Below, piece by piece: positions 178 to 35,678 of a DNA stretch of 36,428 nt (positions are counted from its first letter, which is position 1; every line of letters begins with the position of its first letter). The stretch comes from an uncultured Bacteroidales bacterium. GTDB lineage: Bacteria > Bacteroidota > Bacteroidia > Bacteroidales > Bacteroidaceae. A model generated the notes under the pieces. It was not told where the DNA came from. It searched no databases and worked only from the letters and a program-made list of their open reading frames with translations. The stretch is from positions 1 to 36,428 of the forward strand of contig CACZBC010000021.1 of the NCBI GenBank assembly GCA_902779315.1, read 5' to 3'. A program made the translations under genes and the position numbers.

Positions 178-265
178 TTAATTCTCTCTAGTGTGACGAT
201 TGCGTTTGTCACGTTTGACATTTGCATTTGTCTAGTGTGACGATTGCGATTGTCGCGTGTGTCAT
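178..265. repeat. 22-nt-period degenerate tandem repeat, locus R1
   Basis: Four consecutive 22-nt units begin at 178, 200, 222 and 244; the last three start with TTGC. Alternate units share TAGTGTGACGA (189-199 and 233-243, exactly 44 nt apart). The unit relates to the five other loci listed in this annotation, here mostly in the reverse-complement sense (GTGTGACGATTGC). It lies between the divergent HU-like and DUF4248 genes. Function unknown. Confidence 0.8.
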
Positions 266-416
266 CCGGATTGACGATACAAAGTTACAACCTTTTCAAG
301 GCGCGTTGATGGTCTTTGGCGGGCATTGGAAGTCTTGGGTGGTTATTGGTGGTTATTGGTGGAAAAAGCGGGGCGAAAACTTGCATAAGTCACGGAAATT
401 TAGTAACTTTTGTAGC

Positions 417-596
417 ATGAAAGCGATGTATAAATACGAACTGGCAGAAGCCGCTGGAGTGAGCGCAAACACCTTCCGTCGTTGGCTCAACGAGAACACA
501 CAAAACCTTGCCCGATTTGGCGTGAAGAAGCGCAGCCAAATGCTGCCACCAAGGGCAGTGCAGTGGGTGTGCCATGAATATGGCATCAATTTGTAG
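417..596 (+). CDS. DUF4248-type small helix-turn-helix protein
   Basis: The protein is 59 aa from the ATG at 417; an alternative ATG at 426 gives 56 aa. The open frame extends further upstream but without family-like sequence. It reads MYKYELAEAAGVSANTF, a helix-turn-helix-like segment, followed by RRWLNENTQNLARFG, a basic linker and PRAVQWVCHEYGINL. This layout fits the DUF4248 family of small Bacteroidales proteins, usually found beside HU-like proteins in accessory regions. A DNA-binding role is inferred from the HTH-like helix pattern only. The gene ends 3 bp before an inverted-repeat element at 599-753. AACTTTTG at 404-411 could be a degenerate -7 box, with TTG about 21 nt upstream. Confidence 0.75.
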   Translation: MKAMYKYELAEAAGVSANTFRRWLNENTQNLARFGVKKRSQMLPPRAVQWVCHEYGINL

Positions 597-598
597 TT

Positions 599-753
599 GT
601 CACAAAATCACAAATGTCACAAGCGAAAAAAAGAGATGTGCGGTTTCCTATTATATAATTAAGGAAATATTAATTACTTATTATTATAATAATATATAGT
701 CTTCGCTCCTTTCTCAAATTTAGTTGTGATTTTTGTGATTTTTGTGATTTTTT
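599..753. repeat. Inverted-repeat element A with AT-rich core
   Basis: The left arm (599-622) carries TCACAAAA-type iterations and ends in AAGCGAAAA. The right arm (724-753) carries three GTGATTTTT iterations, the same motif inverted. The roughly 100-nt core is very AT-rich (TTATTATTATAATAATAT) and ends in CTTCGCTCCTTTCTCAAA before the right arm. Element B at 10643-10800 has the same layout, the same AGCGAAAA and CTTnGCTyCTyTCTCAAA-like junctions and nearly the same size. This indicates one family of element rather than chance. Confidence 0.75.
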
Positions 754-1140
754 CGTGGATGTTGGGCGGCAGAAGGTGCTTGAAAGTTTCGCAGCCACAT
801 AAAAAGCCTCCATTTCGACAGGCATTTGAAGCGGACGGAAAATTGCGCTGTTTCCACACCTTTTTCATGCCAAAAAGAATTGCCCGTCTCAGGACGAAAT
901 CCAGAACCCCCGAAAAACCCCTCTCTTTTGCCCCAAAATCGCTTCAAATGTCTCCGACGTATATTTGTACCACCGAAGCAAAAACTTGCGCTCTACGGTG
1001 CCTTAAAATGAGCCGTTAAAATTCAAAGAATTTTACCCCTCCGAAAACCATAGTGAGATTTATGCCTAGAGCTTTACACTTCACACCTTATTTCCACAAA
1101 ATCACAAAATCACAAAAATCACAGGGGTTTTTGACACATA
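754..1140. other. Non-coding interval with a third TCACAAAA array
   Basis: No convincing gene is seen. A 97-codon plus-strand open frame (726-1019) begins inside the repeat arm and has no recognisable domain. At 1094-1124 there is a third array of TCACAAAA-type iterations in the same sense as the left arm of element A, so 724-1124 is itself bounded by inverted arrays. The interval may be a decayed remnant of an accessory element; nothing else was identified. Confidence 0.5.
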
Positions 1141-1176
1141 AAGAAAGCCCCTCCCTTTTGCCGGGGAGAGGCTTTC
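1141..1176 (-). terminator. Rho-independent terminator of the C1B peptidase gene
   Basis: A stem of GAAAGCC and GGCTTTC continues through CTCCC/GGGAG with one mismatch, and has a TTTTGC loop. Read on the minus strand it ends in GGCTTTCTTTAT, 26 bp past the stop codon at 1202. Confidence 0.75.
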
Positions 1177-5170: not shown

Positions 5171-6049
5171 TTAGATGATGATTTTGCTCTTGTGGTAGTT
5201 GTCGCGGAAAGCAGTCGGCGAGCAACCCTTCTTCTTCTTGAAGATGCGGTTGAAGTTGCTGATGTTGTTGAAGCCGCAACTGTAGCAAATCTCTGCCACG
5301 CTGGTATGTGTGTCGACAAGCAAACGGGCGGCATAGCCCAGACGAATGTCGATGATGTAGTCGCTCACAGTCTTGCCCGTACGGGTACGGAAGAAACGCG
5401 AGAAAGCGGCGGGAGTCATGCCTGCAATATCAGCCAAAGTCTTCAGTCGGATTTCCCTCTTGAAGTTCTGGTCGATATGCTCTTCGACAGCACGAACGCG
5501 ACGGCTTTCGGGTGTGTTCTTGACATTGGCAAACGATTTGCTGGCCAGCAAATGGTAGTTATCCTGAAGAGAGAGCTCGTAGAGAATCTCGAGCAGAGAA
5601 AGCATGCGATAGAAGCCGGGCTGAGCCGAAGTGATGTTCGTGATCTTGCCATACAACTCCATAATGGCCGGCAACTCGAAGGCTACGCCTCGCTTGGCAT
5701 TCTCGAAAAGGGCACGAAGGCTGCTCAACTGGTTCTTCTGGAGGAACTGCTCACCAAGCAAGTCGGGGGGAAACTGAATGGTGATTTCGTGGATGGAATG
5801 GCTCTGGCAATCGTACTGGTCCCACATGTGCTCGAGACCGCTGCCAACAAGCACGAGGTCGTACTTGCCAAGCACCTCGATACTGTCGCCAACAATGCGG
5901 CGAGCACCATCGCAATGTTCCACGAAGTTCAACTCCATCTCTTCGTGTTTGTGAAGAGGATAAGTAAATGCGTCTTTGTCACGATCGACCATCAGGAAGC
6001 AATCCTTCTCTCCCAATGGCGTGACCTCAGTAATTACTTTGTCAGTCAT
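5171..6049 (-). CDS. AraC-family transcriptional regulator
   Basis: The protein is 292 aa. The N-terminal part is a cupin-like effector-binding domain (PLHKHEEMELNFVEHCDGARRIVGD, about 30-56; quoted here only in part as PLHKHEEMELNFVEH). The C-terminal roughly 100 residues carry the paired AraC helix-turn-helix motifs, with LKTLADIAGMTPAAFSRFF, then DIRLGYAARLL and VAEICYSCGFNNISNF before PTAFR. It is the first gene of the minus-strand run and sits directly upstream of the GH5 gene, so sensing a mannan-derived sugar is a reasonable guess. A well-formed promoter lies at 6114-6144. Confidence 0.92.
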   Translation of the reverse strand: MTDKVITEVTPLGEKDCFLMVDRDKDAFTYPLHKHEEMELNFVEHCDGARRIVGDSIEVLGKYDLVLVGSGLEHMWDQYDCQSHSIHEITIQFPPDLLGEQFLQKNQLSSLRALFENAKRGVAFELPAIMELYGKITNITSAQPGFYRMLSLLEILYELSLQDNYHLLASKSFANVKNTPESRRVRAVEEHIDQNFKREIRLKTLADIAGMTPAAFSRFFRTRTGKTVSDYIIDIRLGYAARLLVDTHTSVAEICYSCGFNNISNFNRIFKKKKGCSPTAFRDNYHKSKIII

Positions 6050-9046: not shown

Positions 9047-10414
9047 TTAGTCTTCTTCGCTAAACATTGGGTCCCATGCGGGCAAACGGACGGGTTTCTG
9101 TTTCAGCAGATCGAGCACGGATGCCGGGCAATAGCGACGGTTGGCCACTATGCGGAACATGTACTCGCGGAACCATTCGTCGGTCATGATGATGTAGCCG
9201 TTTGCGCCGCTGTCCGAGCCCCAGCTGTTCTCCACTTTCCACTTCTTCGCCTTGCCCTGGCCGTCGAGGTCCACAGCCATCAAGGTCATGGCGTGGGTGC
9301 TGCCGCTGTCGAAGGTCTGGATGCGCTGCTTCTTGTTCATGCCAAAGGTCGTTCCCAACAGGCTTCCGTAGTCGAAATTCGCCAGGTCGGCTATGCCTGT
9401 AGTGCGGTCCAGGAACTTGTTGACGTCGCAGCTGAAATAGATCTGGCTGCTGTCCTTCAGCGAAGCGATGGCGATGCTCTCCAGCTCCTCGATGGGCAGG
9501 TTGACATAGAGCCAGTTGTGTCCGTCGTAGACATGGCGGTCGTAGTCAATCTCATAGACCTTGCCAAAGGGGCGGCTGGGGTCGTTCATCAGCATCACAT
9601 AGTCCTTGTTGAGGTCTTCGCCATCCTCGATGCAATAGGCCTTGAAGAATTCTTGCGGGGTGTAGGACTTGTCCTCCCAAGTGAACTTTGTGGGAGGCAC
9701 GCCATAAGCCATGACGAGCATGCGATAGACGGTGCCGAGCTGCTCCACCTTGAGCGCCTGCAACTGCTTCTCGCCCATACCTGCCTCACTCTTTTCGCGA
9801 AGGGTGATGCCGAACTCGCGCAACTTCCTTTTCAGGTGACCGCAGAACTCGCTGGTACTGTTGCTGACATAGGTTTCGGGCATGATGTCGGCAGGGACGA
9901 CGCCGTACTTTGTGGCCAGGTCAGCCACGCCGGTGTAGGTGCCGCCGTCGGAGAGCGGATGCTGGAAGAGCCAGCGCACCATCTCGCTGTCGACGGGTTG
10001 CTTGCGGGTGTCGATGATGCCCTGCAGGAAGAGATTGCTCTTCTCGAGCTGGTCGTAGAAGAAGAGGTAGCACTGACTGAGGACGAGGTCCTTTGTGCCG
10101 AGCTTCTTCATCGCCCTGCCCCTCAGCACATTAAGCCCTGTAAAGAGCCAGCAACGGCCGCTGCTCTTCTGGTCGGTAATGCCCGTGTTCTTAATCTCGA
10201 TGCCGAAGTGCTTGTCCTTGGCACCGGCATTCTCCTGGTTGATGGCCATCTTCGCGATGCCGACATTGCTGATGGCATTGCGGAGCGCCTTCTCGGCGGG
10301 TGTACCGGTATAGCTGCCCTCGAGCTGCTTGAGCACTTCGGGCGTGATGCTCGTCTGTGCGCTTGCCAGCATGCAGAACATCATTGCCAACGTGTAGATA
10401 ATCGCTTTCTTCAT
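9047..10414 (-). CDS. pepC: Aminopeptidase C/bleomycin hydrolase (C1B), exported
   Basis: The protein is 455 aa, the normal C1B length, with a signal peptide (MKKAIIYTLAMMFCMLASA). The catalytic residues are visible: Gln82/Cys88 in DQKSSGRCWLFTG, His374 in SGSTHAMTLM and Asn396 in VENSWGSD. Family members are hexameric thiol aminopeptidases that trim peptides from the N terminus; here export would place it in the periplasm. It is the first gene of a minus-strand operon with rbfA, the LolC/E-like permease and the radical SAM maturase. A strong promoter match is at 10447-10478. Confidence 0.92.
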   Translation of the reverse strand: MKKAIIYTLAMMFCMLASAQTSITPEVLKQLEGSYTGTPAEKALRNAISNVGIAKMAINQENAGAKDKHFGIEIKNTGITDQKSSGRCWLFTGLNVLRGRAMKKLGTKDLVLSQCYLFFYDQLEKSNLFLQGIIDTRKQPVDSEMVRWLFQHPLSDGGTYTGVADLATKYGVVPADIMPETYVSNSTSEFCGHLKRKLREFGITLREKSEAGMGEKQLQALKVEQLGTVYRMLVMAYGVPPTKFTWEDKSYTPQEFFKAYCIEDGEDLNKDYVMLMNDPSRPFGKVYEIDYDRHVYDGHNWLYVNLPIEELESIAIASLKDSSQIYFSCDVNKFLDRTTGIADLANFDYGSLLGTTFGMNKKQRIQTFDSGSTHAMTLMAVDLDGQGKAKKWKVENSWGSDSGANGYIIMTDEWFREYMFRIVANRRYCPASVLDLLKQKPVRLPAWDPMFSEED

Positions 10415-10478: not shown

Positions 10479-10543
10479 TAATTTGGCAATTATTTTGCAT
10501 AGCAAAATAAAATTCTTTCATAGGCAGGGTAAAATGCAAAGAT

Positions 10544-10642
10544 GACGTGTGAAGTTGGGCAACTTAGCACGTGAAGTTTGGCATCTTCGCACGTGAAGTT
10601 TGGCATCTTAACAGGCCATCTTTGGCATCGTCGCTGGCGCAT
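10544..10642. repeat. 22-nt-period degenerate tandem repeat, locus R2
   Basis: GGC of the TTGGC core recurs at 10558, 10580, 10602 and 10624, exactly 22 nt apart. The first units carry GCACGTGAAGT; later units decay. The array runs directly into the left arm of element B. It lies upstream of the pepC promoter. Confidence 0.85.
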
Positions 10643-14835: not shown

Positions 14836-15993
14836 ATGAACTATAAGAAGTTAATCCCTGTCATGCTATGCTTCTTCACGATGGGTTTCGTGGATATGGT
14901 TGGCATAGCAAGCAACTATGTAAAGGCCGACTTGAATCTCTCCGATTCCATGGCAAACACACTTCCTTCGCTTGTGTTCCTTTGGTTCCTTATCTTCAGC
15001 ATTCCCACAAGTTTGCTGATGAACAAAATCGGCCGAAAGAACACGGTACTTCTGAGTCTTGTGATGACTTTGGCAGCAATGGTAGTGCCCGTGTTTACCC
15101 TCGATTTCACCATGTTGCTCCTGTCCTTCTCACTTTTGGGAATAGGCAATGCCATTATGCAAACCTCGCTCAATCCATTGGTTGACAGTGTGATGAAAGG
15201 AGGCGCATCAGCCAGCACCCTGACTTTTGGGCAGTTCATCAAGAGTATCGCATCGTTTCTGGCTCCCATCATCGCTTCTTGGGGTGCCACCACAAATGCT
15301 TTCGGCCTGGGTTGGCAAGCACTCTATCCTATTTATTTAGGCATCGGAGTGGTGGCAACATTGCTACTTTTCGGCACTCGTATCAATGAGGAGCCAGTCA
15401 TCGGCGAGCAGAAATCCGTAGGCGAGCAGTTTGCCGGAGCCTTTGCTTTGCTGGGCAATTCCTTCATCCTGCTTTGCTTTATCGCCATCATCTGTCATGT
15501 AGGAATTGACGTTGGAACCAGCGTAACCGCGCCAAAGATACTGATGGAACGGACTGGCATGACACTTAACGATGCCGCTTTCGTCTGCACCATCTACTTC
15601 ATAGCCAAGGCTGCAGGCAGTTTCTCGGGCAGTTTCATCATGAACTATGTCAAGGACTGGACTTTCCTGCTCATCAGTGTCTTGATGATGGTATTGGCAG
15701 CCTTCGGTCTCATCTACGGCCAGAGCACAGCCGTCATCTATGCAAGTGTGGCCTTGATGGGCTATGGCAACGGCAATCCTTTCAGCATCGTCTTTGCAAG
15801 AGCTCTGCAAGCTGTTCCCAACAAGAAGAACGAAGTCAGCGGTCTGCTCATTATGGGCATCTTCGGCGGCACAATTTTCCCGCTGCTCATGGGCTTTGCC
15901 AGCGATGCAATGGGACAAGTGGGAGCCGTCCTTGTTATGGCTGTCGGCATCCTCTATCTGCTCGGCTTCTGGCTTCAAGGCAGGAAAGCTTGA
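14836..15993 (+). CDS. MFS sugar transporter
   Basis: The protein is 385 aa with about twelve hydrophobic segments. It begins MNYKKLIPVMLCFFTMGFVD and carries the MFS loop LLMNKIGRKNTVL after the second helix. It resembles the fucose/glucose/galactose permease branch (FGNAIMQTSLNPLVD-like ending of helix four is seen as GIGNAIMQTSLNPLVDSV). It sits in the inner membrane and likely imports a hexose by proton symport. As the last gene of the manA-ROK operon it probably carries mannose. A 22-nt repeat unit overlaps its stop codon, and a terminator follows at 16089-16118. Confidence 0.88.
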   Translation: MNYKKLIPVMLCFFTMGFVDMVGIASNYVKADLNLSDSMANTLPSLVFLWFLIFSIPTSLLMNKIGRKNTVLLSLVMTLAAMVVPVFTLDFTMLLLSFSLLGIGNAIMQTSLNPLVDSVMKGGASASTLTFGQFIKSIASFLAPIIASWGATTNAFGLGWQALYPIYLGIGVVATLLLFGTRINEEPVIGEQKSVGEQFAGAFALLGNSFILLCFIAIICHVGIDVGTSVTAPKILMERTGMTLNDAAFVCTIYFIAKAAGSFSGSFIMNYVKDWTFLLISVLMMVLAAFGLIYGQSTAVIYASVALMGYGNGNPFSIVFARALQAVPNKKNEVSGLLIMGIFGGTIFPLLMGFASDAMGQVGAVLVMAVGILYLLGFWLQGRKA

Positions 15994-16077
15994 AAACGTC
16001 ACACTTTATGATTGGCAACGACACACGTTAAGTTTGCCAACGACACACGTCAAGTTTGCGATTTAACTACGTCATGT
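15990..16077. repeat. 22-nt-period degenerate tandem repeat, locus R3
   Basis: Units start at 15990, 16012, 16034 and 16056, exactly 22 nt apart. The second and third units differ at only a few positions (TTGGCAACGACACACGT / TTGCCAACGACACACGT). The first unit overlaps the stop codon of the MFS gene. It lies between convergent transcription units. Confidence 0.88.
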
Positions 16078-21174: not shown

Positions 21175-22034
21175 AAATACGTCAAACCATACTCGTCCTC
21201 TCGTTGCTCTTCGCAATTCCTTTGCTTGCGCAAGAGAACGATGAACTCGGCATCTGGTCGGAGATAGGCATTGAGAAATCCATCACGAAGAGCTGGGATG
21301 TCGGACTGGATTTGGAGTATCGCGCACAAAACAAGGCACGCTTCTCCACCAGTCTTGGCACTAGCTACAAGCTGAACAAGTACCTCAAGTTTGGTCTCAG
21401 CTACAGTTTCCTCTACTCCGAAAAGAACGCATACAAGGACAAGAGCGAAGGTGAAATCGGCTCAGGCGATTGGACTAAAGGCTACAAACTCATCACCGAT
21501 GACTGGTATCCTCGCCATCGTTTCAGCGCAGAGGCTACGGGCAGCATCAAGCTTTGGTCGTGGCTCAAGATTTCACTCCGAGAACGTTACCAACTGACTC
21601 GCCGCAGAGAAAGGAATGTCAACAGACTTGTCCATCTCGAAAACCACGTGACTGAGATTATCGATTGGGACGAGGACTTCAATCCCATCACAGAGGATCA
21701 CGTATATATAACAGACAAGACAGAGATAAAGAACTACCCTGCCCTCACGGACCAGGTATTGCGTTCACGCCTCAAACTCGAGTACGACAAGAAGCGCTGC
21801 CCCTATTCGCCCTTCGTTTCGGCTGAGTTCCACAACAGCGTCAGCAAGGGTGAAAACATGCTTCTGCAGAAGATTCGCACATCTGCAGGCTGCTCCTACA
21901 AGTTCCGCAAGCACAACGAAGTGTCGCTCTCATACACGACAACATTCTACATGTACGACATAGAAGAGGACGCAACCGTGCGTCTCCACGAAAGAAGACA
22001 CGCCATTTGCCTCGGCTACAAATACAGTTTCTGA
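21171..22034 (+). CDS. DUF2490 outer-membrane-type protein
   Basis: The protein is 287 aa from the ATG at 21171; the longer frame to 21093 lies in the DUF4956 gene. A signal peptide (MKIRQTILVLSLLFAIPLLAQ) precedes alternating beta-strand sequence with many aromatic ends (YKLNKYLKFGLSYSFLYSE, RHRFSAEATGSIKLWSWLK), ending in a terminal aromatic ICLGYKYSF, which is typical of beta-barrel proteins. This is the DUF2490 pattern. It is translationally coupled to DUF4956 and likely provides the outer-membrane part of the cluster. No enzymatic motif is visible. Confidence 0.82.
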   Translation: MKIRQTILVLSLLFAIPLLAQENDELGIWSEIGIEKSITKSWDVGLDLEYRAQNKARFSTSLGTSYKLNKYLKFGLSYSFLYSEKNAYKDKSEGEIGSGDWTKGYKLITDDWYPRHRFSAEATGSIKLWSWLKISLRERYQLTRRRERNVNRLVHLENHVTEIIDWDEDFNPITEDHVYITDKTEIKNYPALTDQVLRSRLKLEYDKKRCPYSPFVSAEFHNSVSKGENMLLQKIRTSAGCSYKFRKHNEVSLSYTTTFYMYDIEEDATVRLHERRHAICLGYKYSF

Positions 22035-22066
22035 ACAATAACAAGCATAACAAACATAACAGACTT

Positions 22067-22513
22067 ATGAAGACAAAGTTCTTTCTCGCAGTAATGCTGC
22101 TCGCCTTCAGCACAGGAATGATGGCTGACAAGTACCTAACCGTCACCTATAACGGCGCAGAAGAGAGCATTTCACTGCCTCTCGTAAAGAGAATCTTTTT
22201 CCAGGATGACTGCATCAAAGTGACAACAACCAACGGAGAGACACACACCTTTGCTCTTTCCAACTTTGAGAAAATCACATTCACCGAATCGGCCGATGCC
22301 ATCAAGGCTCTGCCCGAGCAGGAAGAGAACCTGACATACAAGGACGGTAAACTCGCAGTCAAAGGTGACGGACTGTTGCGCATCTATGGAATGAGCGGCA
22401 CTCTCATCTGTATTGCACAAGTCAAGGATGGCGCAAACGTCAGCTTCGACAACCTGCCTGCCGGTGTTTATATCGTCAGCAAGGACGGCAAGACCATCAA
22501 GGTCAGGAAGTAA
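22067..22513 (+). CDS. Small secreted protein with type IX-secretion-like C-terminal domain
   Basis: The protein is 148 aa from the ATG at 22067. A signal peptide (MKTKFFLAVMLLAFSTGMMA) is followed by about 65 residues of a beta-rich domain. The last 50 residues, including LRIYGMSGTLICIAQ and FDNLPAGVYIVSKDGKTIK, match the general type A sorting-domain pattern (strand, G, strand, LPAGVYIV, basic end). This suggests export through the type IX system and surface attachment. The assignment rests on the pattern only. It is 32 bp after the DUF2490 gene; a repeat array (R4) separates it from the next gene. Confidence 0.7.
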   Translation: MKTKFFLAVMLLAFSTGMMADKYLTVTYNGAEESISLPLVKRIFFQDDCIKVTTTNGETHTFALSNFEKITFTESADAIKALPEQEENLTYKDGKLAVKGDGLLRIYGMSGTLICIAQVKDGANVSFDNLPAGVYIVSKDGKTIKVRK

Positions 22514-22515
22514 CT

Positions 22516-22628
22516 TGCAACGCCCTCCTAAGGTCATCGCAAAACATCTAGTGTGAAAACCGCAAACGTCAAGTGTGACGTTTGGCATTTTCACGTGTGA
22601 TGTTTGGCAACGACACTGGGGACGTTTC
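22516..22628. repeat. 22-nt-period degenerate tandem repeat, locus R4
   Basis: Units start at about 22516 (weak), 22538, 22560, 22582 and 22604, each 22 nt long; the last two begin TTGGCA. AAGTGTGACGT, CACGTGTGATGT and CAACGACACTGGGG occupy the variable part. It sits between two co-directional genes of the VTC cluster and immediately upstream of the DUF4353 gene, 25 nt before its ATG. Confidence 0.85.
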
Positions 22629-22652: not shown

Positions 22653-23879
22653 ATGAGAAAAACCTATCTCATATTTTCACTCTTGCTCTTCGCCTCCATC
22701 ATGCAGGCTCAAGAACAGATTCGCGTCTGGAAAGAAGGCGAAAGCAAGCGCTTTACGACCTCGGAAATCCAGTTCTCCGAAGACGGAACAACATTCTCTG
22801 TGGCCGATTCCACCTACGATTGCGCCGCTATCGACAGCATCACCGTAGTGCATACAGTTACCGTCACCTTTGATGGAGACACAGCTTATGTCGACCTGGG
22901 GCATGCAGCGAATGTTACAGACACCATCAAAGGCGCCCACGTCAACATCGTCAGCACAAACACAAAAAGCGAGTTGGAGTTCGTCCTGCAAGGTGAAAGC
23001 ACGCATGGCTCGCTGACCTACGACGGACCGCTCAAGTGCAAGTTCTACCTGAACGGACTCAATCTCACGAGCGACGAAGGCGCAGCCATCAACATCCAAT
23101 GTGGCAAACGCATTGACCTCATCCTGAAAGAAGGCACCGAGAACGTCCTTGTTGACGCGCCTAACGGCGAACAGAAGGGAGCCCTCTACTGCAAAGGACA
23201 CCTCGAAGTGTCGGGTGGCGGCTCACTTACCGTCTCAGGAAACTCCAGGCACGCAATCGCCACAAAGGAATACATGCAGATAAAGAAGAGCACAGGCAGC
23301 ATCACAGTCAACAAAGCAGTATCCGACGCCATGCATATCGGCCAGTATTTCCTTATGGAAGGAGGCACGTTGAACATCGGCGGACAAGGTGGAGAAGGCA
23401 TTCAGGTTGAGACCTTGACGATCATTACAGAAGATAATGACACCATACCAAACCCGGAGAAAGAGGACAACGGCTTGATGTTCATCCGTGGAGGACAACT
23501 GAATATCACTGCTGGTGCTCCCACTTCGAAAGCAATTAAAGCCCCAACCGACTTGACAATCAGTGGAGGCACATTTGAAATAGCAGCTTCCGGCCCAGGC
23601 ACCAAAGGCATCTCTGTCTCTGGGAACATGCTTGTCAATCAGGATGACAACACTACCGTCATAACTGTTCGCGCAACTGGTGGCAGTTATGAAGACGAAA
23701 GTGGGGACGATTCTTATTGCTATGGACTCAAGATAAAGGGGAATCTGACTGTTACTGCCGGCAGACTTCAAGTTTCGAACAGAGGCTATGGTTCAAAGGG
23801 AGGCAAAGTCGGAGGCACTTGCATTAAGTCTCCTGAAGCTTCCGTGAGTGTTAGCGGACTGACCTGGCAAACTCAATAG
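22653..23879 (+). CDS. DUF4353-type carbohydrate-binding-like secreted protein
   Basis: The protein is 408 aa. A signal peptide (MRKTYLIFSLLLFASIMQAQ) precedes a long right-handed beta-helix-like region rich in short repeated turns: INIQCGKRIDLILKEGTENV, GALYCKGHLEVSGGGSLTVSG, MLNIGGQGGEGIQ-like (TLNIGGQGGEGIQVETL), LFIRGGQLNITAGAP and LTISGGTFEIAASG. This is the carbohydrate-binding domain (DUF4353) often found near VTC/DUF4956/CotH genes. The protein is probably displayed at the surface. CotH, a common partner in that neighbourhood, is absent here. The end lacks the sorting-domain pattern. Confidence 0.83.
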   Translation: MRKTYLIFSLLLFASIMQAQEQIRVWKEGESKRFTTSEIQFSEDGTTFSVADSTYDCAAIDSITVVHTVTVTFDGDTAYVDLGHAANVTDTIKGAHVNIVSTNTKSELEFVLQGESTHGSLTYDGPLKCKFYLNGLNLTSDEGAAINIQCGKRIDLILKEGTENVLVDAPNGEQKGALYCKGHLEVSGGGSLTVSGNSRHAIATKEYMQIKKSTGSITVNKAVSDAMHIGQYFLMEGGTLNIGGQGGEGIQVETLTIITEDNDTIPNPEKEDNGLMFIRGGQLNITAGAPTSKAIKAPTDLTISGGTFEIAASGPGTKGISVSGNMLVNQDDNTTVITVRATGGSYEDESGDDSYCYGLKIKGNLTVTAGRLQVSNRGYGSKGGKVGGTCIKSPEASVSVSGLTWQTQ

Positions 23880-27777: not shown

Positions 27778-29202
27778 ATGGCAAACTTAAAAGGATTAGC
27801 AAAGGATACGGCCATCTACGGACTCTCGAGCATCGTGGGTCGTTTCCTCAACTACTTGCTCGTTCCGCTCTACACACACTATATGCCCAAAGCCTCTGGC
27901 GATTATGGTGTGAGCACGAACATGTATGCGTACACGGCTTTGTTCTTCGCCATTCTGACTTTCGGCATGGAGACGACACTCTTCCGCTATGCCAACGATG
28001 AGCGAGAAACACCCGATACCGTCTTCTCCACCGGTTTTGCGATGGTGGGAAGCCTTACTGCTCTCTTCCTTTTGCTTGTTTTCGGCTTCATCACACCCAT
28101 TTCGAACTATCTCGGATATGCAGCTCATCCTGAATACTTAATGATGATGGCAGCCGTTGTTGCCCTGGATGCCTTGCAGGCTTTGCCTTTCTGTTTCCTT
28201 CGTTTCCAACATCGGCCCATACGTTTCATGTCGTTGAAGATGCTCTTCATCTTCCTCAACATCGCCCTCAACCTTATATATTTCGTCATTCTTGGCAAGA
28301 CAAGCGTCTTCTATGTCTTTTTCATTAATCTCATTTGCACGAGCTTCATCACCTTCTTCTTCATTCCTGATCTGATAAAGATCCATTGGAAATTCGACGG
28401 CAATCTGTTGCGAAGGATGCTCTCCTACTCGTGGCCGATACTCCTATTGAGTGTGATGGGCATCCTAAATCAAGTGGCGGACAAGATACTTTTCCCAAAG
28501 GTTTATCCAGATGAGGCTCAGGCGAACGTCGAGTTAGGCGTTTATGGAAGTTGCGTGAAGATAGCCATGATTATGGCCATGATTACCCAAGCTTTCCGAT
28601 TTGCCTACGAGCCCATCGTCTTTTCAAAGGCGAAAGATGCCGACAAGAACGAGTATTATGCCCTAGGCATGAAGTACTTCATCATCTTCACCCTCCTTGC
28701 TTTCCTCGGAGTGATGGGATACTTGCCCATCTTGAAGTATATGATCGGCTCCGATTATTGGGAAGGATTGAAAGTAATCCCAATCGTGATGGCAGCCGAG
28801 ATTATGATGGGCATCTACTTCAACCTCTCATTCTGGTACAAGTTGATTGACAAAACCATCTATGGTGCCCTGTTCTCTTTGGCAGGATGTCTCGCTCTTT
28901 TGGTCGTCAACATTTGGGGAATCCCCCATTACAGCTATATGGCTTGTGCTTGGGGAGGTGTTGCAGGATACGGAACAGCTATGCTTCTGAGCTATTTCGT
29001 AGGGCAGCGAATCAACCCAATCCCCTATCCGATTGGTTCGATAGCGCTTTATGTCATCATCGCAGCCGTATTCTACGGAGTGATGGCACTCGTTCCCAAA
29101 GAATGGCCGATGTGGATTTACCTAGCTATCAGCACACCACTTTGCCTCACATTTGCAGGCATAATTTACTGGAAGGAACTGAGGAAGAAACCAGCCAACT
29201 AA
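27778..29202 (+). CDS. Polysaccharide/lipopolysaccharide flippase (MOP superfamily, Wzx-like)
   Basis: The protein is 474 aa with about twelve to fourteen membrane segments. It begins MANLKGLAKDTAIYGLSSIV and has the family-typical GRFLNYLLVPLYTHY. It probably moves undecaprenyl-linked sugars to the periplasm, in the inner membrane. No glycosyltransferase cluster is adjacent. An rfbA gene lies 3 kb away on the other strand. An R5 repeat array follows its stop codon. Confidence 0.87.
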   Translation: MANLKGLAKDTAIYGLSSIVGRFLNYLLVPLYTHYMPKASGDYGVSTNMYAYTALFFAILTFGMETTLFRYANDERETPDTVFSTGFAMVGSLTALFLLLVFGFITPISNYLGYAAHPEYLMMMAAVVALDALQALPFCFLRFQHRPIRFMSLKMLFIFLNIALNLIYFVILGKTSVFYVFFINLICTSFITFFFIPDLIKIHWKFDGNLLRRMLSYSWPILLLSVMGILNQVADKILFPKVYPDEAQANVELGVYGSCVKIAMIMAMITQAFRFAYEPIVFSKAKDADKNEYYALGMKYFIIFTLLAFLGVMGYLPILKYMIGSDYWEGLKVIPIVMAAEIMMGIYFNLSFWYKLIDKTIYGALFSLAGCLALLVVNIWGIPHYSYMACAWGGVAGYGTAMLLSYFVGQRINPIPYPIGSIALYVIIAAVFYGVMALVPKEWPMWIYLAISTPLCLTFAGIIYWKELRKKPAN

Positions 29203-29230
29203 GGACAAGAGAAAACATGGCCTTAGTCGT

Positions 29231-29318
29231 TGGCAAACGTATAGTGTGACGATTGCAAATGTATAGTGTGACGATTGCAAACGTGGCACTATACGATTCG
29301 AATCATAAAGTGCCACGT
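29231..29318. repeat. 22-nt-period degenerate tandem repeat, locus R5
   Basis: Units start at 29231, 29253, 29275 and 29297. The first two are nearly identical (GTATAGTGTGACGA shared). The last two form the arms of a 42-bp palindrome. It is located between convergent genes. Confidence 0.9.
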
Positions 29319-29335: not shown

Positions 29336-31831
29336 TCACTCTCGCAAAATAATCTTTCGAAGGGCATCCATCAACTGGTCAGCCAAGCCGATGTTGTATC
29401 CTTGGCGAATCCAATAGACGCGATTGAAAGTGTCGCAAAGCATGAGAAGAGGCAATTCTTTGCTGCCGTGAGTGAGTTCCTCGATGTGCATCGCCTCGAT
29501 TGTTTCAGGGTCTGCCACGCCGAAGAGCACGTTGCTTGGCAAATCGTCAAACTCCTTTCGGTCGAAGTTGGAATAATCCTCCTGACTTTGGAAAAGCATC
29601 AAGTAGCATTGCGACCATTGCGAGAGATGGATGTTAGCTGCCTCCATGTCGTGAAGGAGGTGTGTGCTCGGCTCATGATTGCTGCGGATAAGGGCTATCA
29701 TATAAAAGCCTCGACCAGTCGTCTCAAGTATCTTCTTGTGAACACCTCTTGCATTCGTGAAGTAATTCTCGCAGTCGAAATTGCCAATTACATGCAGATG
29801 CTCCTCATCTGCTCGCAGTCGCAAAGTCGCAGTCTTATCTTTCTGTGCCTCAACACCAAATATCTCGAGGTTTGCCCAAACACCGCCATTTGCCAAACGA
29901 GTGCCGCTGACAAGCATGTACTGGCCTGCATCAATGTTCACGCCATTAGCAAATGTCCCTTTCAAAGTCGCATTTTCTGGGAACTCCTGAACTTTTGGAC
30001 GACCACTCTCGATGCGCGACAAGGCGAAATGCGAGTAGTAGGAAGGATTCTCCTTCACTTCCTGGTCCTTATAGAAGAAATACAATGTACCTTGAGGAGC
30101 CGTTTTTTCCTGAGCAGAATCAAACAGGACATCGTACCACGAGTCAGTCGTAATGTCTGCCCATTGCACTTTGCCTGTCACCTCGTCAATGCGTGCTGGG
30201 ATGCCTATACTACGAGCCGCAGAAACAAAGAAAATGTCGCGACTGTGAGCGTCACAAGTTCTGTGACTTAGCACGCCAAGCGGACTCATGCAGAGATGCT
30301 GCGGATTGCGCGTATCATCAACTGTGATACTGTCCGTCACCCATTGCAGAAGTTGCTCTGCCGTCATGCCTTGGAACTTCTCAGAAAGGGTCCCTCGACA
30401 AGGCGTCAAACGTTCATTAGCGACTCTCGGACAGAGAACATAGTTGTCCCAAAGTGGGCTGTCAAAACCCTTCGTGTTCTCAGCCACGTCCATCAGCACC
30501 TCCATCGTGACATCACGATAGTCCTTGCGAGCAAGTGTCTTGAGGACATCGCCCTTGCATTTCTTGGCAGCTTCGCTCTTTTTGAAAGCTTCGATGGTCT
30601 GCCAATTTGCTCGTGCCATCACTTCTGGACTATTTGGCTCGCCATTTTGACAGAATGCCTCTTTCATATAGGCGATACGGATGCTATCCTCCTCGGCAAG
30701 ACGTTTTCGGTTGGCACGAACTGCATCGGCACTTACTTCAGGCTTGTTGTCTTTTCCAAACGGTGGATTCAGGTCCATCTCAAGCGAGGCAGTATACGTG
30801 CTGTCCTTGTCAAGGACAACAGTCACTAAGGCATCTTTTCCAACACTCACTTTCTGGAAGCCGAACTTACCGTCCTTGCTTGCCCAGACAATCAAGTCGC
30901 CCTTGCCACAAGTCAACGACGACTTGCCCTTCACATCACTTTGCTTCGACACAATAGGATAGAACTCTGCATAATTGTAAAGGCGGTAATCAACCGTCGC
31001 ACCCTCGACAGGAAGACTATCCTGGCCAAGCACAGTTACTATGATGGAAGCCACATCGACATAGTTCTTCGTGACGTTTATCTCCGTATAACATGCCGTC
31101 TTGTTCACTACTTCCTCTGGTCCCGTATAATCACCAAAGACTTTCGTGTGCATGAGCATGCCTCTGCTGGCCGATTCGTTGAACCATCCGAGGTTCAATA
31201 CCGGCTCTGGTTCGCAAGCGCCCAAGAAGTACCACCTTCCATCGACCCAAGCCTCTACCCAAGCATGGTTGTCATCCGTATGTGCCCAACGAGGTGTGTA
31301 AACTTGTCTGGCAGGAATACCGATGGTGCGAAGAGCAGTAACTGTGAATGTGCTTTCTTCTCCACAACGTCCTATGGCAGAACGAAGTGTGTTCATCGGC
31401 GAGGAGGTCCGACTGTCGCTGGGTTGGTAGCTGACATGTTCGTGACACCAATGGTTCACCTCCAACACGGCAGCATACATCGTCTTGCCTTCGACACGCG
31501 CCTTCAACTCGTCGTAATAGGCAATACGAAACGAGTCGAGGTCCTCGTTGTTGACACGCAAAGGCAGAACGAAGTGCCGCCATTCCCTGCCTGGAACCTT
31601 CTCTCCCCAAGGCATTTCATGACGTGCTTTAACCGCCATCTCCACGTTAGCTTCCCAGAATTCACGAGGATAATCCACGCTGTCGGGCAGCGGCATTCCC
31701 GCATAAAGGAAGTCGAGTGCGTCTTGTTCCTCTTGCTTCAGACCGTCTGTGCAAGCAGTCAGCACACTTATAAAAGCAAAGAGCCCCACAACGAGGGCTC
31801 CATGCAATGTCTTTCTTACGTTATTCTGCAT
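29336..31831 (-). CDS. Transglutaminase-core lipoprotein, two-domain
   Basis: The protein is 831 aa with a lipoprotein signal (FAFISVLTAC, Cys27). The first transglutaminase-like domain has Cys156 in AIGRCGEESTF and His189 in DDNHAWVEAW; the position usually holding the third triad residue is Gly204 in YFLGACEPEP. A middle Ig/CarboxypepD_reg-like beta domain (VDVASIIVTVLGQDSLPVEG) follows. A second, diverged transglutaminase-like segment (LGVLSHRTCDAHSRDIFFV, then SIGIPARIDEVTG) lies near residue 530. It overlaps the GH125 stop by 11 bp and closes the GH92-GH125 operon. Role unknown; RCGE resembles the peptide:N-glycanase motif RCGEWA, a possible clue. Confidence 0.85.
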   Translation of the reverse strand: MQNNVRKTLHGALVVGLFAFISVLTACTDGLKQEEQDALDFLYAGMPLPDSVDYPREFWEANVEMAVKARHEMPWGEKVPGREWRHFVLPLRVNNEDLDSFRIAYYDELKARVEGKTMYAAVLEVNHWCHEHVSYQPSDSRTSSPMNTLRSAIGRCGEESTFTVTALRTIGIPARQVYTPRWAHTDDNHAWVEAWVDGRWYFLGACEPEPVLNLGWFNESASRGMLMHTKVFGDYTGPEEVVNKTACYTEINVTKNYVDVASIIVTVLGQDSLPVEGATVDYRLYNYAEFYPIVSKQSDVKGKSSLTCGKGDLIVWASKDGKFGFQKVSVGKDALVTVVLDKDSTYTASLEMDLNPPFGKDNKPEVSADAVRANRKRLAEEDSIRIAYMKEAFCQNGEPNSPEVMARANWQTIEAFKKSEAAKKCKGDVLKTLARKDYRDVTMEVLMDVAENTKGFDSPLWDNYVLCPRVANERLTPCRGTLSEKFQGMTAEQLLQWVTDSITVDDTRNPQHLCMSPLGVLSHRTCDAHSRDIFFVSAARSIGIPARIDEVTGKVQWADITTDSWYDVLFDSAQEKTAPQGTLYFFYKDQEVKENPSYYSHFALSRIESGRPKVQEFPENATLKGTFANGVNIDAGQYMLVSGTRLANGGVWANLEIFGVEAQKDKTATLRLRADEEHLHVIGNFDCENYFTNARGVHKKILETTGRGFYMIALIRSNHEPSTHLLHDMEAANIHLSQWSQCYLMLFQSQEDYSNFDRKEFDDLPSNVLFGVADPETIEAMHIEELTHGSKELPLLMLCDTFNRVYWIRQGYNIGLADQLMDALRKIILRE

Positions 31832-33251
31832 ACATGTCTACGATGAGTTCGCCAAAGATTGTGTTGGCCCATGCGAACCAACTGCGAGTGAAGTCTTCTG
31901 CATTATCCTTGTTGAAGGACTCGTGCATAAAGCCTTTGCCGCCATCGGTCTTAAGGATTTCCTGCACGCACCACTCCTTCTCAGCACGGTCATTAGTGGT
32001 GAATGCCTTCATCACCAAGCTCATAGGCCAAGGCTTATCGAGTCCGCAGTGAGGACCCCCAATGCCTTCGCCAGCCTTTCCTTTGAAGAAGTAAGGATTG
32101 TCCTCACTCCAAACGAACTTGCGCGTATTTTGATAAATGGGATCGTCAATAGCGACATCGGTCAGGTAGGGCAGACAAAGCAGGCTGGGAGCATTGCTGT
32201 CATCCATCAGGAGATAGCTTCCGTAGCCGTCAACTTCGAAGGCATAGATGGGACCATACTTGGGATGTTCCACAACGGCATATTCCTTCAAGGCTGCTTC
32301 CACCTGGCTTGCCATCTGCTCACATTCCCCAGCAAGCACCTTTTCCTTGTTCACGTCGCGAAGAATGGTTGCAGCTTTACGCAGAACACTTACTGCAAAG
32401 AAGTTCGAAGGCACAAGGTATGGGAAGATTGTGCTGTCGTCACTGGGACGGAAAGCACTGGCAATGAGTCCGCATGCTTTACCAGGATGGCCGTAGCCTG
32501 CGTTGCTGCGAGTATCGTGCAATGCCTTGGTGTTGCGACGGAAGTGGTAGTTGGTCTTGTATCCATTCCAGTTCTGCTGGTCGCGGAACACGTCGAGTGT
32601 GGCGCGTACTACTTTGAGCCAAGTCTCGTCGAAGATGCTGTTATCACCTGTCTTCTGCCAATAAGCATAAGCCAAGCGGAGAGGATAGCAAAGAGAGTCA
32701 ATCTCGTACTTGCGCTCGTGCAACATCTTATTCATCTTTGTCTCGTCTGTCTGCCATTCACCATCTTTTGGCTTGATGTTGAAGGCATTGGCATAGGGAT
32801 CGATAAGGATGCATGCGAACTGACGACGGATGACGCCACGAATGAGATGACGCAGCGGCTCGTCCTGATTCACATAGCGAAGGTAGGGCCAAACTTGTGC
32901 TGCACTGTCGCGCAACCACATAGCTTCAATGTCGCCAGTAATGACAAATGTATCGTCGTCACCACTCTCGTTGCTGTACCAAACAGTCGTGTCGAGCGTG
33001 TTAGGGAAGCAGTTAACGAACATCCAATACAGTTTGGGATCAATTGCGGTCAATTTCTGCTTGAGGTCGATTATTTGCTTCTCGACAGCTTCACTGCGGA
33101 AGAGTCGCTTCTCTGGAGCAGGACGGAGGTCCTTGATAGTGCTTTGTACTGCCACTTGCTGCTTTTTTGCAGGCTCAGGGAAAGTGTAGTTCGTATTGCT
33201 GAAAGCGAACATTGGCGCGCTCATCAGCAGGGCAAACATTAGTTTCTTCAT
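31821..33251 (-). CDS. GH125 exo-alpha-1,6-mannosidase
   Basis: The protein is 476 aa with a signal peptide (MKKLMFALLMSAPMFAFS). The family's conserved blocks are seen: GDIEAMWLRDSAAQVWPYL (with the general acid Asp), LIDPYANAFN, then LCYPLRLAYAYWQKTGD, and near the end GGKGFMHESFNKDNAEDF with TRSWFAWANTIFGEL (base Glu region). GH125 enzymes are inverting, metal-independent, and remove alpha-1,6-linked mannose from yeast mannan or N-glycan cores. It lies between GH92 (19 bp upstream) and the transglutaminase gene (11-bp overlap), and is exported. Confidence 0.93.
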   Translation of the reverse strand: MKKLMFALLMSAPMFAFSNTNYTFPEPAKKQQVAVQSTIKDLRPAPEKRLFRSEAVEKQIIDLKQKLTAIDPKLYWMFVNCFPNTLDTTVWYSNESGDDDTFVITGDIEAMWLRDSAAQVWPYLRYVNQDEPLRHLIRGVIRRQFACILIDPYANAFNIKPKDGEWQTDETKMNKMLHERKYEIDSLCYPLRLAYAYWQKTGDNSIFDETWLKVVRATLDVFRDQQNWNGYKTNYHFRRNTKALHDTRSNAGYGHPGKACGLIASAFRPSDDSTIFPYLVPSNFFAVSVLRKAATILRDVNKEKVLAGECEQMASQVEAALKEYAVVEHPKYGPIYAFEVDGYGSYLLMDDSNAPSLLCLPYLTDVAIDDPIYQNTRKFVWSEDNPYFFKGKAGEGIGGPHCGLDKPWPMSLVMKAFTTNDRAEKEWCVQEILKTDGGKGFMHESFNKDNAEDFTRSWFAWANTIFGELIVDMYAE

Positions 33252-33270
33252 CGTTATCTCTTTTTTTACC

Positions 33271-35433
33271 TTATTTCGTCATGTAAACATCCAGCGTTCC
33301 ACCAGCCATGATCTGCTCGTGGGTGATGGTTGTACCCTTGAGGGTTTGGCCGTTCAGCACATACTTCTTGACGTAGATGGCTTTGTCGCTGCCTCCGTGG
33401 GTACGGATGGTGAAAGTCTTATCTTCGCCGACAGGAATGACAGCCTCTTCCACAATGGGCGAGCCAAGCTGATAAACGCCGCCACAAGGCTCAACCTGAT
33501 AGAAGCCGAGGGCTGAGAGGATGTACCAAGCAGACATCTGACCTACGTCCTCATTGCCGCAAAGACCTGCAGGCTGGTCTGTGTAAAGTTCGTCCATCAC
33601 TTGGCGAATCCACTTCTGTGCCTTGCGAGGTTGCCCAACATAATTATACATATAAAGGATGTGATGGCTGGGTTCGTTGCCATGAGCATACTGACCGATA
33701 AGGCCGGAAATGTCTGGAGCAGCACCTGCACCAAGGTCGCTACTTGCAGCCAAAAGGTCGTCGAGACGCTTGTCAAGAGCCTTGTCTCCACCCATCACCT
33801 CAGCAAGTCCCTTCACATCATGAGGAACGAGGAAGGTATACTGCCAGGGATTGCCTTCAGTATAGTCGCGTGTCTGCTGATTCGGGTTGAAGTTGGGAGG
33901 CAGAGGACGGAACTCTCCTTTGCTGTCAAGAGCGCGCATCACGTTCACTCGGCGGTCGTAGAGCTTCTTGTAGTTCATGCTGATCTCATAGAAACGAACG
34001 CTGTCTTCCTTGTGACCAAGTTTTCCTGCGAGTTGAGCTGCTGCCCAAGATGCTATGAAGTACTCCATGCTCTTGCCGACAACCTCGCCTTCGCGACCGT
34101 CGTAAGGCAGATAACCAAGTTCTGCAAGATAGTCTTTACCACGAAGAGGAACTCGACGAACCTTTGCGAATTCAGTGGGAAGCATGCTTGCACAAACTGC
34201 TTCGTAAGCCTCGTCAATGTCAATATCGCCAGCCTCTCCCTTCAGAATGATATCAGCCAGAACGGGAACGGCAGGCTCGCCCACCATGCAATAGGTGTCG
34301 TTACTTACGAGATGCCAAACTGGCAGTTCGCCCCATTCGCGATAGATGGCGAGCATCGTCTTGGCATAATCGCGCATACGGTCAGGCATAATGATGGTTG
34401 CCAAAGGATGAGCGGCACGATAAGTGTCCCAAAGACTCCAGGTTGTGAGCGTATTATAGTCAGCTCCGCGATGAACCTTAAAGTCCGCACCCATATAGTC
34501 ACCCGTCACATCGTTCCAAAGTTGGGGAGCTACCATGTAGTGGTACATTGCCGTATAGAAGATGGTACGCTCGCGTTCCGTACGGAAAGTCGCTTTGATG
34601 CGGGAGAGTTGCTCGTTCCAAGCCTCGACTGCAGCTTTTGCAGTACCGTCGAAGTCAAAGCCATTAGGCTGCTCGACATTCATGTTGATGAGCGCATTAG
34701 CCTCGCTTGTGGGTGAAAGAGCCACTTTAACCATCACATCATCACCAGGTCCGACCTCGAAGGTGGCCTGTCCGTACTTCGCATTCAGGCCTTCGCTCAG
34801 CCAGTTATGAATGGACTTGCTGAACTTCATGCAGAAATAGACAATCTGATCGTTTGCCCAACCATGACTGCGACGATAGCCCATCAGAGTATAGTCGTCA
34901 ACAGGAACAACACGAGTATCTGTAGCTTGGTCGCCGATGGTATTTTCCAAGTCGATAATGATGCGAGCATTGTTGCTGCCTTTTGGGAAGGTGAAACGAT
35001 AGAGAGCGGTACGCTCAGTTGCAGTCACCTCAGCCTTGATGTGGAAGCGGTCCAATATGACTTGGTAATAACCAGGCTCCACAACCTCCGATTCGTGACT
35101 GTATTCGCTGGCAATACCTTCGCGAGAAAGCTCCAGATCGCCATAAGCAGGCATCAGACCGATGTCTCCCAAGTCGCCGCAACCAGTACCGCTCAAATGC
35201 ATTTGGGCAAAACCGATAATCTTCTTGCCACTCTCATGATAGCCGGAACACCAGTCCCAACCCGTCTCAATCTGTGTCGGACCAGCATTCACCATACCAA
35301 AAGGCACGTTGGCACCCACGAAAACATGGCCGTGATCGCCTGTACCGATGACGGGATTGACGTACTGTGCAAAGTTTTCAGCCTGTGCCGTAACAGCAAA
35401 CATCAGGCCGAGAAGGAAAAATTTACTTTTCAT
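33271..35433 (-). CDS. GH92 alpha-mannosidase
   Basis: The protein is 720 aa from the ATG at 35433. The open frame runs to 35580, but MKSKFFLLGLMFAVTAQA is a signal peptide and the -7 box lies upstream of it. Family blocks are YVNPVIGTGDHGHVFVGANV, GYHESGKKIIGFAQMHLSGTG and, near the C terminus, GLCGNEDVGQMSAWYILSALG. GH92 enzymes are calcium-dependent, inverting and exo-acting on alpha-1,2/1,3/1,4-mannosides. It is the first gene of the GH92-GH125-transglutaminase operon. A strong promoter match is at 35467-35497. Confidence 0.95.
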   Translation of the reverse strand: MKSKFFLLGLMFAVTAQAENFAQYVNPVIGTGDHGHVFVGANVPFGMVNAGPTQIETGWDWCSGYHESGKKIIGFAQMHLSGTGCGDLGDIGLMPAYGDLELSREGIASEYSHESEVVEPGYYQVILDRFHIKAEVTATERTALYRFTFPKGSNNARIIIDLENTIGDQATDTRVVPVDDYTLMGYRRSHGWANDQIVYFCMKFSKSIHNWLSEGLNAKYGQATFEVGPGDDVMVKVALSPTSEANALINMNVEQPNGFDFDGTAKAAVEAWNEQLSRIKATFRTERERTIFYTAMYHYMVAPQLWNDVTGDYMGADFKVHRGADYNTLTTWSLWDTYRAAHPLATIIMPDRMRDYAKTMLAIYREWGELPVWHLVSNDTYCMVGEPAVPVLADIILKGEAGDIDIDEAYEAVCASMLPTEFAKVRRVPLRGKDYLAELGYLPYDGREGEVVGKSMEYFIASWAAAQLAGKLGHKEDSVRFYEISMNYKKLYDRRVNVMRALDSKGEFRPLPPNFNPNQQTRDYTEGNPWQYTFLVPHDVKGLAEVMGGDKALDKRLDDLLAASSDLGAGAAPDISGLIGQYAHGNEPSHHILYMYNYVGQPRKAQKWIRQVMDELYTDQPAGLCGNEDVGQMSAWYILSALGFYQVEPCGGVYQLGSPIVEEAVIPVGEDKTFTIRTHGGSDKAIYVKKYVLNGQTLKGTTITHEQIMAGGTLDVYMTK

Positions 35434-35466
35434 CGTTATAGCTTGTTTATTGTAGAAAATTTGGTA

Positions 35467-35497
35467 CAAAGATACGAAAAAGAAACGAAAGGCCCAA
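35467..35497 (-). promoter_or_regulatory. Promoter of the GH92-GH125-transglutaminase operon
   Basis: On the minus strand, TTG (35497-35495), a 20-nt spacer and TATCTTTG (35474-35467) match the Bacteroidetes primary consensus, 34 nt before the start codon at 35433. Confidence 0.8.
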
Positions 35498-35590
35498 GCC
35501 ATCCGGCATAATTCTTCATCTCGGAAACCTTTTTCCCTGCCTGACTCTATATTAGTCCAACAAAGCACATCCACAAGCACCCAGTCATGT

Positions 35591-35678
35591 TTGCAAACTA
35601 GGCACGTTACATTTGCAATCGTATAACGTTACGTTGGCAATCGTATAACGTTACGTTGGCCAACGACACACGCCACGT
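35591..35678. repeat. 22-nt-period degenerate tandem repeat, locus R6
   Basis: Units start at 35591, 35613, 35635 and 35657. Units two and three are almost identical (GCAATCGTATAACGTTACGT). The fourth carries CCAACGACACACG, matching R3. It lies between the GH92 promoter and the rplQ terminator. Confidence 0.9.

Follow-up and report, generated by a model that had tools for sequence, protein, structure and literature searches.

Several described repeat systems share features with the elements studied here. BrickBuilt, a minisatellite or miniature inverted-repeat transposable element (MITE) of Porphyromonas gingivalis, is built of 23-nt units, is present as 19 elements in strain ATCC 33277 and has a leader, a tail and terminal inverted repeats (PMC4596501; it is also treated in PMC5771137). 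Repetitive extragenic palindromes (REP) and the bacterial interspersed mosaic elements (BIME) are high-copy, species-specific extragenic palindromes of alternating orientation (PMC2817692, PMC3733652), and the DNA uptake sequences (DUS) of the Neisseriaceae form dialects that are species-specific, conserved within species and diverging along the family (PMC3630211). In the Prevotella intermedia/nigrescens group, the 188-bp intergenic repeat PINSR (177 copies in one strain and 184 in another) is lineage-specific and lacks terminal inverted repeats; about three-quarters of its sites are common to both strains and it is absent from most strain-specific regions (PMC4755523). Here we analyse a stretch of 36,428 nt (the window; contig C21, CACZBC010000021.1, of the 2.83-Mb, 107-contig, 84%-complete genome G000 of an uncultured rumen Bacteroidaceae), in which an earlier note, made from the letters of the sequence, had described six intergenic arrays of about four degenerate 22-nt units each. 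We found that these arrays belong to a real, widespread and orderly system.

To describe the unit we used 436 kb of G000 (the window plus 400 kb of five contigs), on which a weight matrix was trained. The unit consists of a TTGSCAA-like linker and a 16-bp quasi-palindrome, e.g. WCGTCAAG/TGTGACGW, and units abut with no spacers between them, so that the arrays lack the unique spacers of clustered regularly interspaced short palindromic repeats (CRISPR). Windows of 18 nt matched one another 1271, 567 and 235 times at lags 22, 44 and 66, respectively, vs. 0–162 times at the other lags from 5 to 79 (except 317 at lag 7). Adjacent units lie mostly 22 nt apart in the same sense, and 16 or 28 nt apart when flipped; these two offsets sum to 44, so that the lattice is kept through flips, and of the 251 unit matches scoring 10 bits or more near the 53 sampled arrays, 244 were exactly in phase. 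At a lattice score of at least 18 there were 59 arrays vs. 1 in the Markov-shuffled control, and at a score of at least 24 (strong arrays) 53 vs. 0, which extrapolates to ~340 strong arrays in the whole of G000. The arrays that could be walked for at least three units had four to seven units in 40 of 45 cases. Genome-wide, the unit 16-mer with up to three mismatches matched 352 + 351 times, vs. 11 + 4 for the reversed pattern. The earlier picture of a dispersed, locally homogenised, mostly intergenic and quasi-palindromic lattice, strict in its 22-nt phase and with units in both senses, was thus borne out: the phase is commoner than chance, as the peaks at lags 22, 44 and 66 show, and the six loci have further relatives, as the 703 16-mer matches show.

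Palindromic units (at least 8 of 11 pairs), counted in arrays under length limits, were found in 18/50 arrays of the own genome, 39/93 of the genus, 17/57 of the loci of the aminopeptidase-C-like gene (pepC) and 6/40 of other genera, vs. 1.4–2.9% in the shuffled-unit control (1.9% for the genus arrays); the similarity analysis below applied both length and palindrome limits (e.g. 22 G000 arrays kept). Note that any palindrome repeated every 22 bp automatically has two dyads 11 bp apart; this is a matter of geometry and adds no evidence for helical phasing.

The lattice recurs far beyond the source species, which the earlier note had overlooked; the sequence does not. Among 41 genomes, the own-genome 16-mer matched 703 times in G000 (control 15), 301 in G008 (10), 72 in G005 (6; largely N and dropped from later array analysis), 50 in G012 (21), 67 in G026 (11; another family) and 9–43 in the remainder. 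Periodicity told more: 31 same-genus-like loci (572 kb) held 57 clusters at lag 22 vs. 0–7 at the other lags from 16 to 30 (except 16 at lag 16 and 27 at lag 21), and nine additional genus genomes (395 kb) held 17 arrays at period 22 vs. 1–3 at six control periods. Seven of these nine genomes had arrays, of which a few calls were not evidently palindromic, and G004 and G170 had none in the 35–40 kb seen. Across 661 kb from 31 genomes of other genera we found 18 arrays at period 22, spread over 12 genomes, vs. 1–6 at six control periods, and in 200 kb of a 568-kb replicon of the oral species Prevotella nigrescens 29 vs. 0–5 at periods 17–31 (except 9 at 21). The main family of P. nigrescens comprises 25 arrays by weight matrix, all but one of them in gaps between genes (24 of 66 gaps occupied) and the remaining one outside a gap. 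No clear excess at period 22 was seen in the Bacteroides/Phocaeicola loci (L196-200) or in the more distant Bacteroidales loci L201-209. Contig C2 of G003 and contig C12 of G016 carry fewer, longer arrays with several different cores, which suggests another regime of the same system. Two simpler searches were set aside: TTGCAA-N16-TTGCAA (up to two mismatches) exceeded its reversed control in most of the 41 genomes, distant families included, and without a period control is uninformative, and TTGSCAA-N15-TTGSCAA, with 90 matches in G000 vs. 1 in the control and only 0–31 in 120 other genomes of the family, cannot track dialects.

The cores include TACATGTA, GGTTAACC, AAGTACACGTACTT, CGCCGCGTGCGG, AACTAACGTTAGTT, CACTTGTACAAGTG and CGACCTAGGTCG, and that of P. 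nigrescens is GCAAAACAGGCTCTTTTGC. Length is thus fixed while sequence is free; the 22-nt step is kept and the core differs by lineage. For arrays passing the palindrome limit, mean unit similarity (of 22) was 14.06 within genomes, 10.49 between genomes and 10.25 for shuffled units, and similarity of at least 16 was reached by 58% of unit pairs within genomes, 10% between genomes and 0.04% when shuffled. Similarity within the genome did not exceed that between genomes in L140, L158 and G024, where two or three arrays of unlike families were counted, and similarity between genomes was well above chance for the close sets L130/G008/G000, L156/L138 and L158/G012. The arrays resemble DUS (PMC3630211) in their dialects, but each DUS is a short word repeated thousands of times, whereas the arrays are palindromic, ~90 bp long and present in hundreds of copies. 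PINSR, reported in P. nigrescens, is like the arrays intergenic and without terminal inverted repeats, although the accessible part of its account mentions no 22-nt lattice, even spacing or counterparts of other sequence in other genera (PMC4755523). PINSR is probably one instance of the 22-nt array system, to which we liken it by description and not by sequence; a P. nigrescens array compared with a plasmid collection matched its own record only. Among titles and abstracts, with most subscription journals outside the search, we found no report of a 22-nt lattice, of its spread through the family or of even spacing.

Gaps shared between species show how the arrays are inherited. Upstream of pepC, 14 of 31 sequences (window included, the incomplete locus L148 left out) passed a mechanical threshold, and 10 remained after four AT-rich simple-repeat calls (L136, L137, L143, L152) were dropped by eye, i.e. 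an array stands upstream of the pepC orthologue in 9 of the 30 loci other than the window. Among these ten arrays we count five or more unlike cores. In L137, L143, L144 and L152 this gap holds AT-rich simple repeats (e.g. the 7-mer CAAAATT) that mimic arrays and give lags of 21, 28, 35 and sometimes 22. Downstream of the orthologues of the papain-like peptidase gene (1202–2419 in the window), arrays are present in 8 of the 16 loci whose sequence continues for 300 bp or more, and further gaps also hold arrays in several species. L158 and L159 are 95% identical; the positions of the four arrays compared agree, and one of these arrays has exactly one 22-nt unit more in one locus than in the other. 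Arrays thus keep their place through descent while gaining or losing whole units. When L132/L133, L137/L143 and L131/L132 were aligned in search of empty sites, no clean junction emerged. At 6608–6832 in L142 there is an unusually long array of ~10 units, and the same gap in L134, L154 and L155 holds about five.

The one-unit difference between L158 and L159 is also what would be expected if the arrays were largely non-functional repeats, of minisatellite or REP-like kind, that some copying process spreads and that are tolerated in gaps, with whole-unit slippage keeping the period. The concentration of unit similarity within genomes and the presence of several families in one genome fit this as well. 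We regard it as the chief rival of the docking platforms proposed below, though less likely than these, since independent families should not all settle on 22 nt, copies repel each other (apparently across unlike families too, see below), and the marks of mobility were scarce. No RAYT (REP-associated tyrosine transposase)-type Y1 transposase (PF01797) was found in G000, G005, G008, G012 or G016 (84–92% complete); across 61 genomes of the genus, 22 have a PF01797 match at E ≤ 0.001, 17 of them above the cut-off. Flanking 11-mers common to at least two arrays numbered 14 vs. 14 in the control in G008, 71 vs. 72 in G012 and 248 vs. 87 in G000 (control places random, not intergenic), and the commonest shared words in G000 are presumably −7 motifs of downstream promoters. 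Flanking inverted 9-mers numbered 7 vs. 9 in G000, 2 vs. 3 in G008, 5 vs. 2 in G012 and, for five arrays, 3 vs. 0 in L155. The idea of a non-autonomous element, which the earlier note had kept among its explanations, accordingly finds no support in the forms tested, with neither a RAYT-type transposase in G000 nor shared terminal flanks. One family of L158/L159 has an 18-bp right flank common to two sites; in L158 the stretches 5330–5640 and 9700–9900 share the right flank and one array is bracketed by an 18-bp inverted repeat, possibly a MITE-like variant confined to that lineage.

Neither REP/BIME with RAYT nor BrickBuilt accounts for these arrays. Like REP and BIME (PMC2817692) they are high-copy extragenic palindromes of alternating orientation, but they keep a fixed, sequence-independent 22-bp lattice and repel each other, and a REP/BIME system with RAYT was rejected for want of a Y1 transposase in the five array-rich genomes. 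With BrickBuilt (PMC4596501) they share intergenic tandem short units without spacers, in Bacteroidales, of strain-variable number, but their units are palindromic and 22 nt long, copies are in the hundreds and flanks of an element-like kind are not shared. A BrickBuilt-type MITE was rejected because the period is 22, with lag 23 at background in the own genome and the same-genus-like loci, and because no element-like flanks are shared in G000, G008 and G012. Some copying process must exist, even though the mobile-element forms tested are unsupported.

We then considered where arrays stand relative to one another, in parts of four genomes (G000, G008, G012 and P. nigrescens; G003 and G016, with few arrays, were left out). 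Gene positions for contexts and nulls came from a simple gene caller of our own rather than from annotation, and arrays more than half inside these gene calls were excluded from the periodicity-called spacing, strand-folding, T-run and G012 cross-family counts. In G000, none of 47 neighbour distances was below 2.5 kb, vs. 9.2 ± 2.4 expected when equally many gaps, each 100 bp or longer, were drawn at random (0/5000 draws as low), and 26 of the 47 fell at 4–8 kb vs. 13.9 ± 3.0 expected. Under a stricter null (97 gaps neither divergent nor low-GC, or holding an array), 0/45 distances were below 2.5 kb vs. 7.6 ± 2.1, and the variation coefficient was 0.65 vs. 0.87 (10/5000). The 32 eligible pairs of neighbouring gaps less than 2.5 kb apart held exactly one array in 25 cases, none in 7 and both in 0. 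Arrays called by periodicity alone gave a weaker effect (3/44 below 2.5 kb vs. 8.2; 41/3000). Distances below 3.5 kb were likewise rare in G012 (4/34 vs. 12.9 ± 2.1 expected; 0/3000) and G008 (0/14 vs. 3.3 ± 1.3; 20/3000), and in P. nigrescens the variation coefficient was 0.60 vs. 0.88 ± 0.15 (30/5000), with 3/24 distances below 2.5 kb vs. 6.3 (230/5000). Mutual exclusion or even spacing in the tested parts of all four genomes supports the uniform genome-wide distribution that the earlier note had envisaged, together with an origin-linked sense, as a sign of chromosome architecture. A sense linked to the origin has little meaning here, since the units are nearly palindromic and flip within arrays. 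G012 carries GGTTAACC arrays, CTTC-N6-GAAG-type arrays and a few others, and of its unlike-family neighbours 0/9 lay within 3.5 kb vs. 3.5 ± 1.4 expected (35/4000). Unlike families in one genome thus appear to keep the same mutual spacing; this is suggestive only, because two arrays excluded by the gene-overlap rule (C1:33039 and C3:31493, which stand 2.1 and 1.7 kb away from an array of a different class) would add two close unlike pairs.

The 53 G000 arrays lie in 18 (− −), 13 (+ +), 13 (+ −) and 5 (− +) contexts, with 3 inside gene calls and 1 lacking both neighbours. Divergent gaps are under-represented in G000 (5/49 arrays vs. 26/117 gaps), G012 (3/35 vs. 12/60) and G008 (3/15 vs. 10/30), but not in P. 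nigrescens (5/24 array-bearing gaps vs. 13/66 gaps). In G000 arrays lie at a median of 35 bp from flanking gene ends and of 146 bp from flanking gene starts, and ends exceed starts modestly (57 to 41). This nearness to gene ends and the kilobase spacing would suit loading sites for gyrase or another topoisomerase near the ends of transcription units, by analogy with Escherichia coli BIME-2, intergenic palindromic arrays described as cut by gyrase (PMC6379681). The cores, however, differ between species, whereas gyrase is a conserved enzyme, and we regard such loading sites as improbable.

Arrays also avoid low-GC surroundings in G000: flanks with GC below 0.45 accompanied 0/51 gaps with an array vs. 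12/77 without (Fisher p=0.0017; the three GC thresholds tried gave p of 0.021, 0.0017 and 0.0007, and the low-GC gaps partly adjoin each other). The low-GC genes without neighbouring arrays are probably acquired genes. An array-free, low-GC (0.30–0.48), almost wholly co-directional gene cluster at ~60–92 kb of G000 contig C1 resembles an acquired locus, for surface polysaccharide or something similar. Dialects, even spacing and absence beside low-GC genes could together indicate marks of self-recognition, akin to DUS or Chi, that separate own from foreign DNA, and viral contigs gave no match to the two exact array patterns that were the only ones used; we hold this highly improbable, as uptake words are much shorter and much more numerous than these ~340 sites of ~90 bp.

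We reasoned that the arrays may be docking platforms for an oligomerising, homodimeric DNA-binding protein with a chromosome-scale role, and put the probability of this reading at about 0.45. A homodimer would fill four to seven adjacent palindromic sites, two helical turns apart on double-stranded DNA, and form a short filament or wrapped complex in intergenic gaps about once per 6 kb; the task would most likely be the fixing of supercoil or loop boundaries, or the loading of a topoisomerase or nucleoid protein, and because of this scale extra copies nearby would not be retained. Whole units would be gained, lost and homogenised, so that site sequences drift into lineage dialects while the 22-bp step is held. 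We favour this reading because of the lattice, the palindromicity, the dialects, the position in gaps near gene ends, the exclusion spacing and the absence beside low-GC genes, and also because the sense strand has no folding advantage and the same gap holds different cores in several species. Geometry and spacing that are conserved where sequence is not, with unlike families seemingly respecting the spacing, are what function would produce. A bolder version, which we offer as a tentative possibility, is a family-wide chromosome ruler of ~6-kb marks, i.e. filament-forming platforms of palindromes every 22 bp, ~90 bp in total, between genes and mutually exclusive, whose geometry would be conserved while the recognised sequence turns over by co-evolution of protein and sites, hundreds of sites at once. 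Dispersed repeats are often regarded as selfish or decorative; these arrays would give direct access to the way in which Bacteroidota chromosomes are divided, and their presence in P. nigrescens, a culturable named species, makes the question testable.

Several observations weigh against docking platforms. The variation coefficient over all G000 gaps, 0.68 vs. 0.82 in the null, is not clearly lower (307/5000), because of a few long array-free stretches; some stretches of 15–34 kb have no array. Evenness is weaker in P. nigrescens and G008, the GC shift across all G000 gaps is not significant (p=0.18), and a single genome with two or three unlike cores (G012) is not easily reconciled with one sequence-specific protein. 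Nor has a binding protein come to light, although none was sought by co-evolution. Further, the real unit order folds slightly better as RNA than permuted orders (z −0.71 ± 0.18, 45 arrays), for which local homogenisation could be the cause, T runs of at least five at array ends are commoner than in random 27-mers in G000 and G012, and terminator-like hairpins overlap 18/39 arrays in G012 and 12/57 in G000.

These last three observations, with the nearness to gene ends, would favour elements acting at the RNA level, i.e. hairpins in 3′ untranslated regions that terminate transcription or protect mRNA ends. We judge this quite improbable as a general account. The sense strand folds no better than the antisense strand in the 31, 7 and 24 co-directional arrays of three genomes (p=0.79, 0.30 and 0.21), and an exact step of 22 nt is nothing that an RNA hairpin would require. 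T runs of at least five at array ends read from the upstream gene end numbered 8/57 in G000 (other side 2/41; random 27-mers 17/1200), 9/40 in G012 (other side 9/30; random 9/400) and 0/17 in G008 (random 6/200), and no terminator-like hairpin overlaps any of 18 G008 arrays. Separate terminator-like hairpins stand within 150 bp of 12/57 G000, 3/18 G008 and 10/39 G012 arrays, and by eye an evident terminator precedes the array in L132 and L131. Intrinsic termination therefore hardly serves as the general explanation, given the lack of strand bias in folding and of terminator overlap or T runs in G008, though some arrays, not all, may also act in termination; context, folding and terminator overlap together uphold the earlier statement that the arrays are neither simple promoters nor, in general, canonical intrinsic terminators. 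That length is fixed and sequence free suits the helical geometry of double-stranded DNA better than RNA. At ~11 bp per turn, 22 is two turns, a figure that also suits A-form RNA.

In the window itself, the six arrays stand where the earlier note had placed them to within ~20 bases, and its distances between them (10.3, 5.5, 6.5, 6.7 and 6.4 kb) are correct. Array 1 (178–265, ~4 units of 22 nt) lies ~0.94 kb past the 3′ end of the papain-like peptidase gene (1202–2419, −); it has a lattice score of 66.0 and is also found by Tandem Repeats Finder, although its low-scoring first unit gives 0 units by stepwise walking. Array 2, which we place at about 10534–10621 (4 units), is 120 bp upstream of pepC (9047–10414, −). 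Array 3 (15990–16077, 4 units) overlaps the stop codon of a major facilitator superfamily (MFS) transporter gene (14836–15993, +); beyond it, ahead of the convergent gene 16186–16674 (−), a separate hairpin, GC-rich and with a T run, was read by eye. Array 4, best read from 22538 (22538–22625, 4 units), stands between the co-directional genes 22007–22513 and 22653–23879 (+). Array 5 extends left to 29209 (29209–29318, 5 units) and lies between the convergent flippase (27778–29202, +) and transglutaminase-like (29336–31831, −) genes; as a genome search seed it gave 94 matches at E ≤ 10, and against the plasmid collection only weak matches of 30–31 bases in unrelated species. Array 6 (35591–35678, 4 units) separates the 3′ end of the ribosomal protein L17 gene (35768–36289, −) from a glycoside hydrolase family 92 (GH92) gene (33271–35580, −). 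The transglutaminase-like, GH125 and GH92 genes in a row at 29336–35580 form a mannoside-type gene group. Short tandem repeats of 8–9-mers (TTGTGATTT / AAAATCACA) lie at 724–752 and 1095–1123, between array 1 and the peptidase gene.

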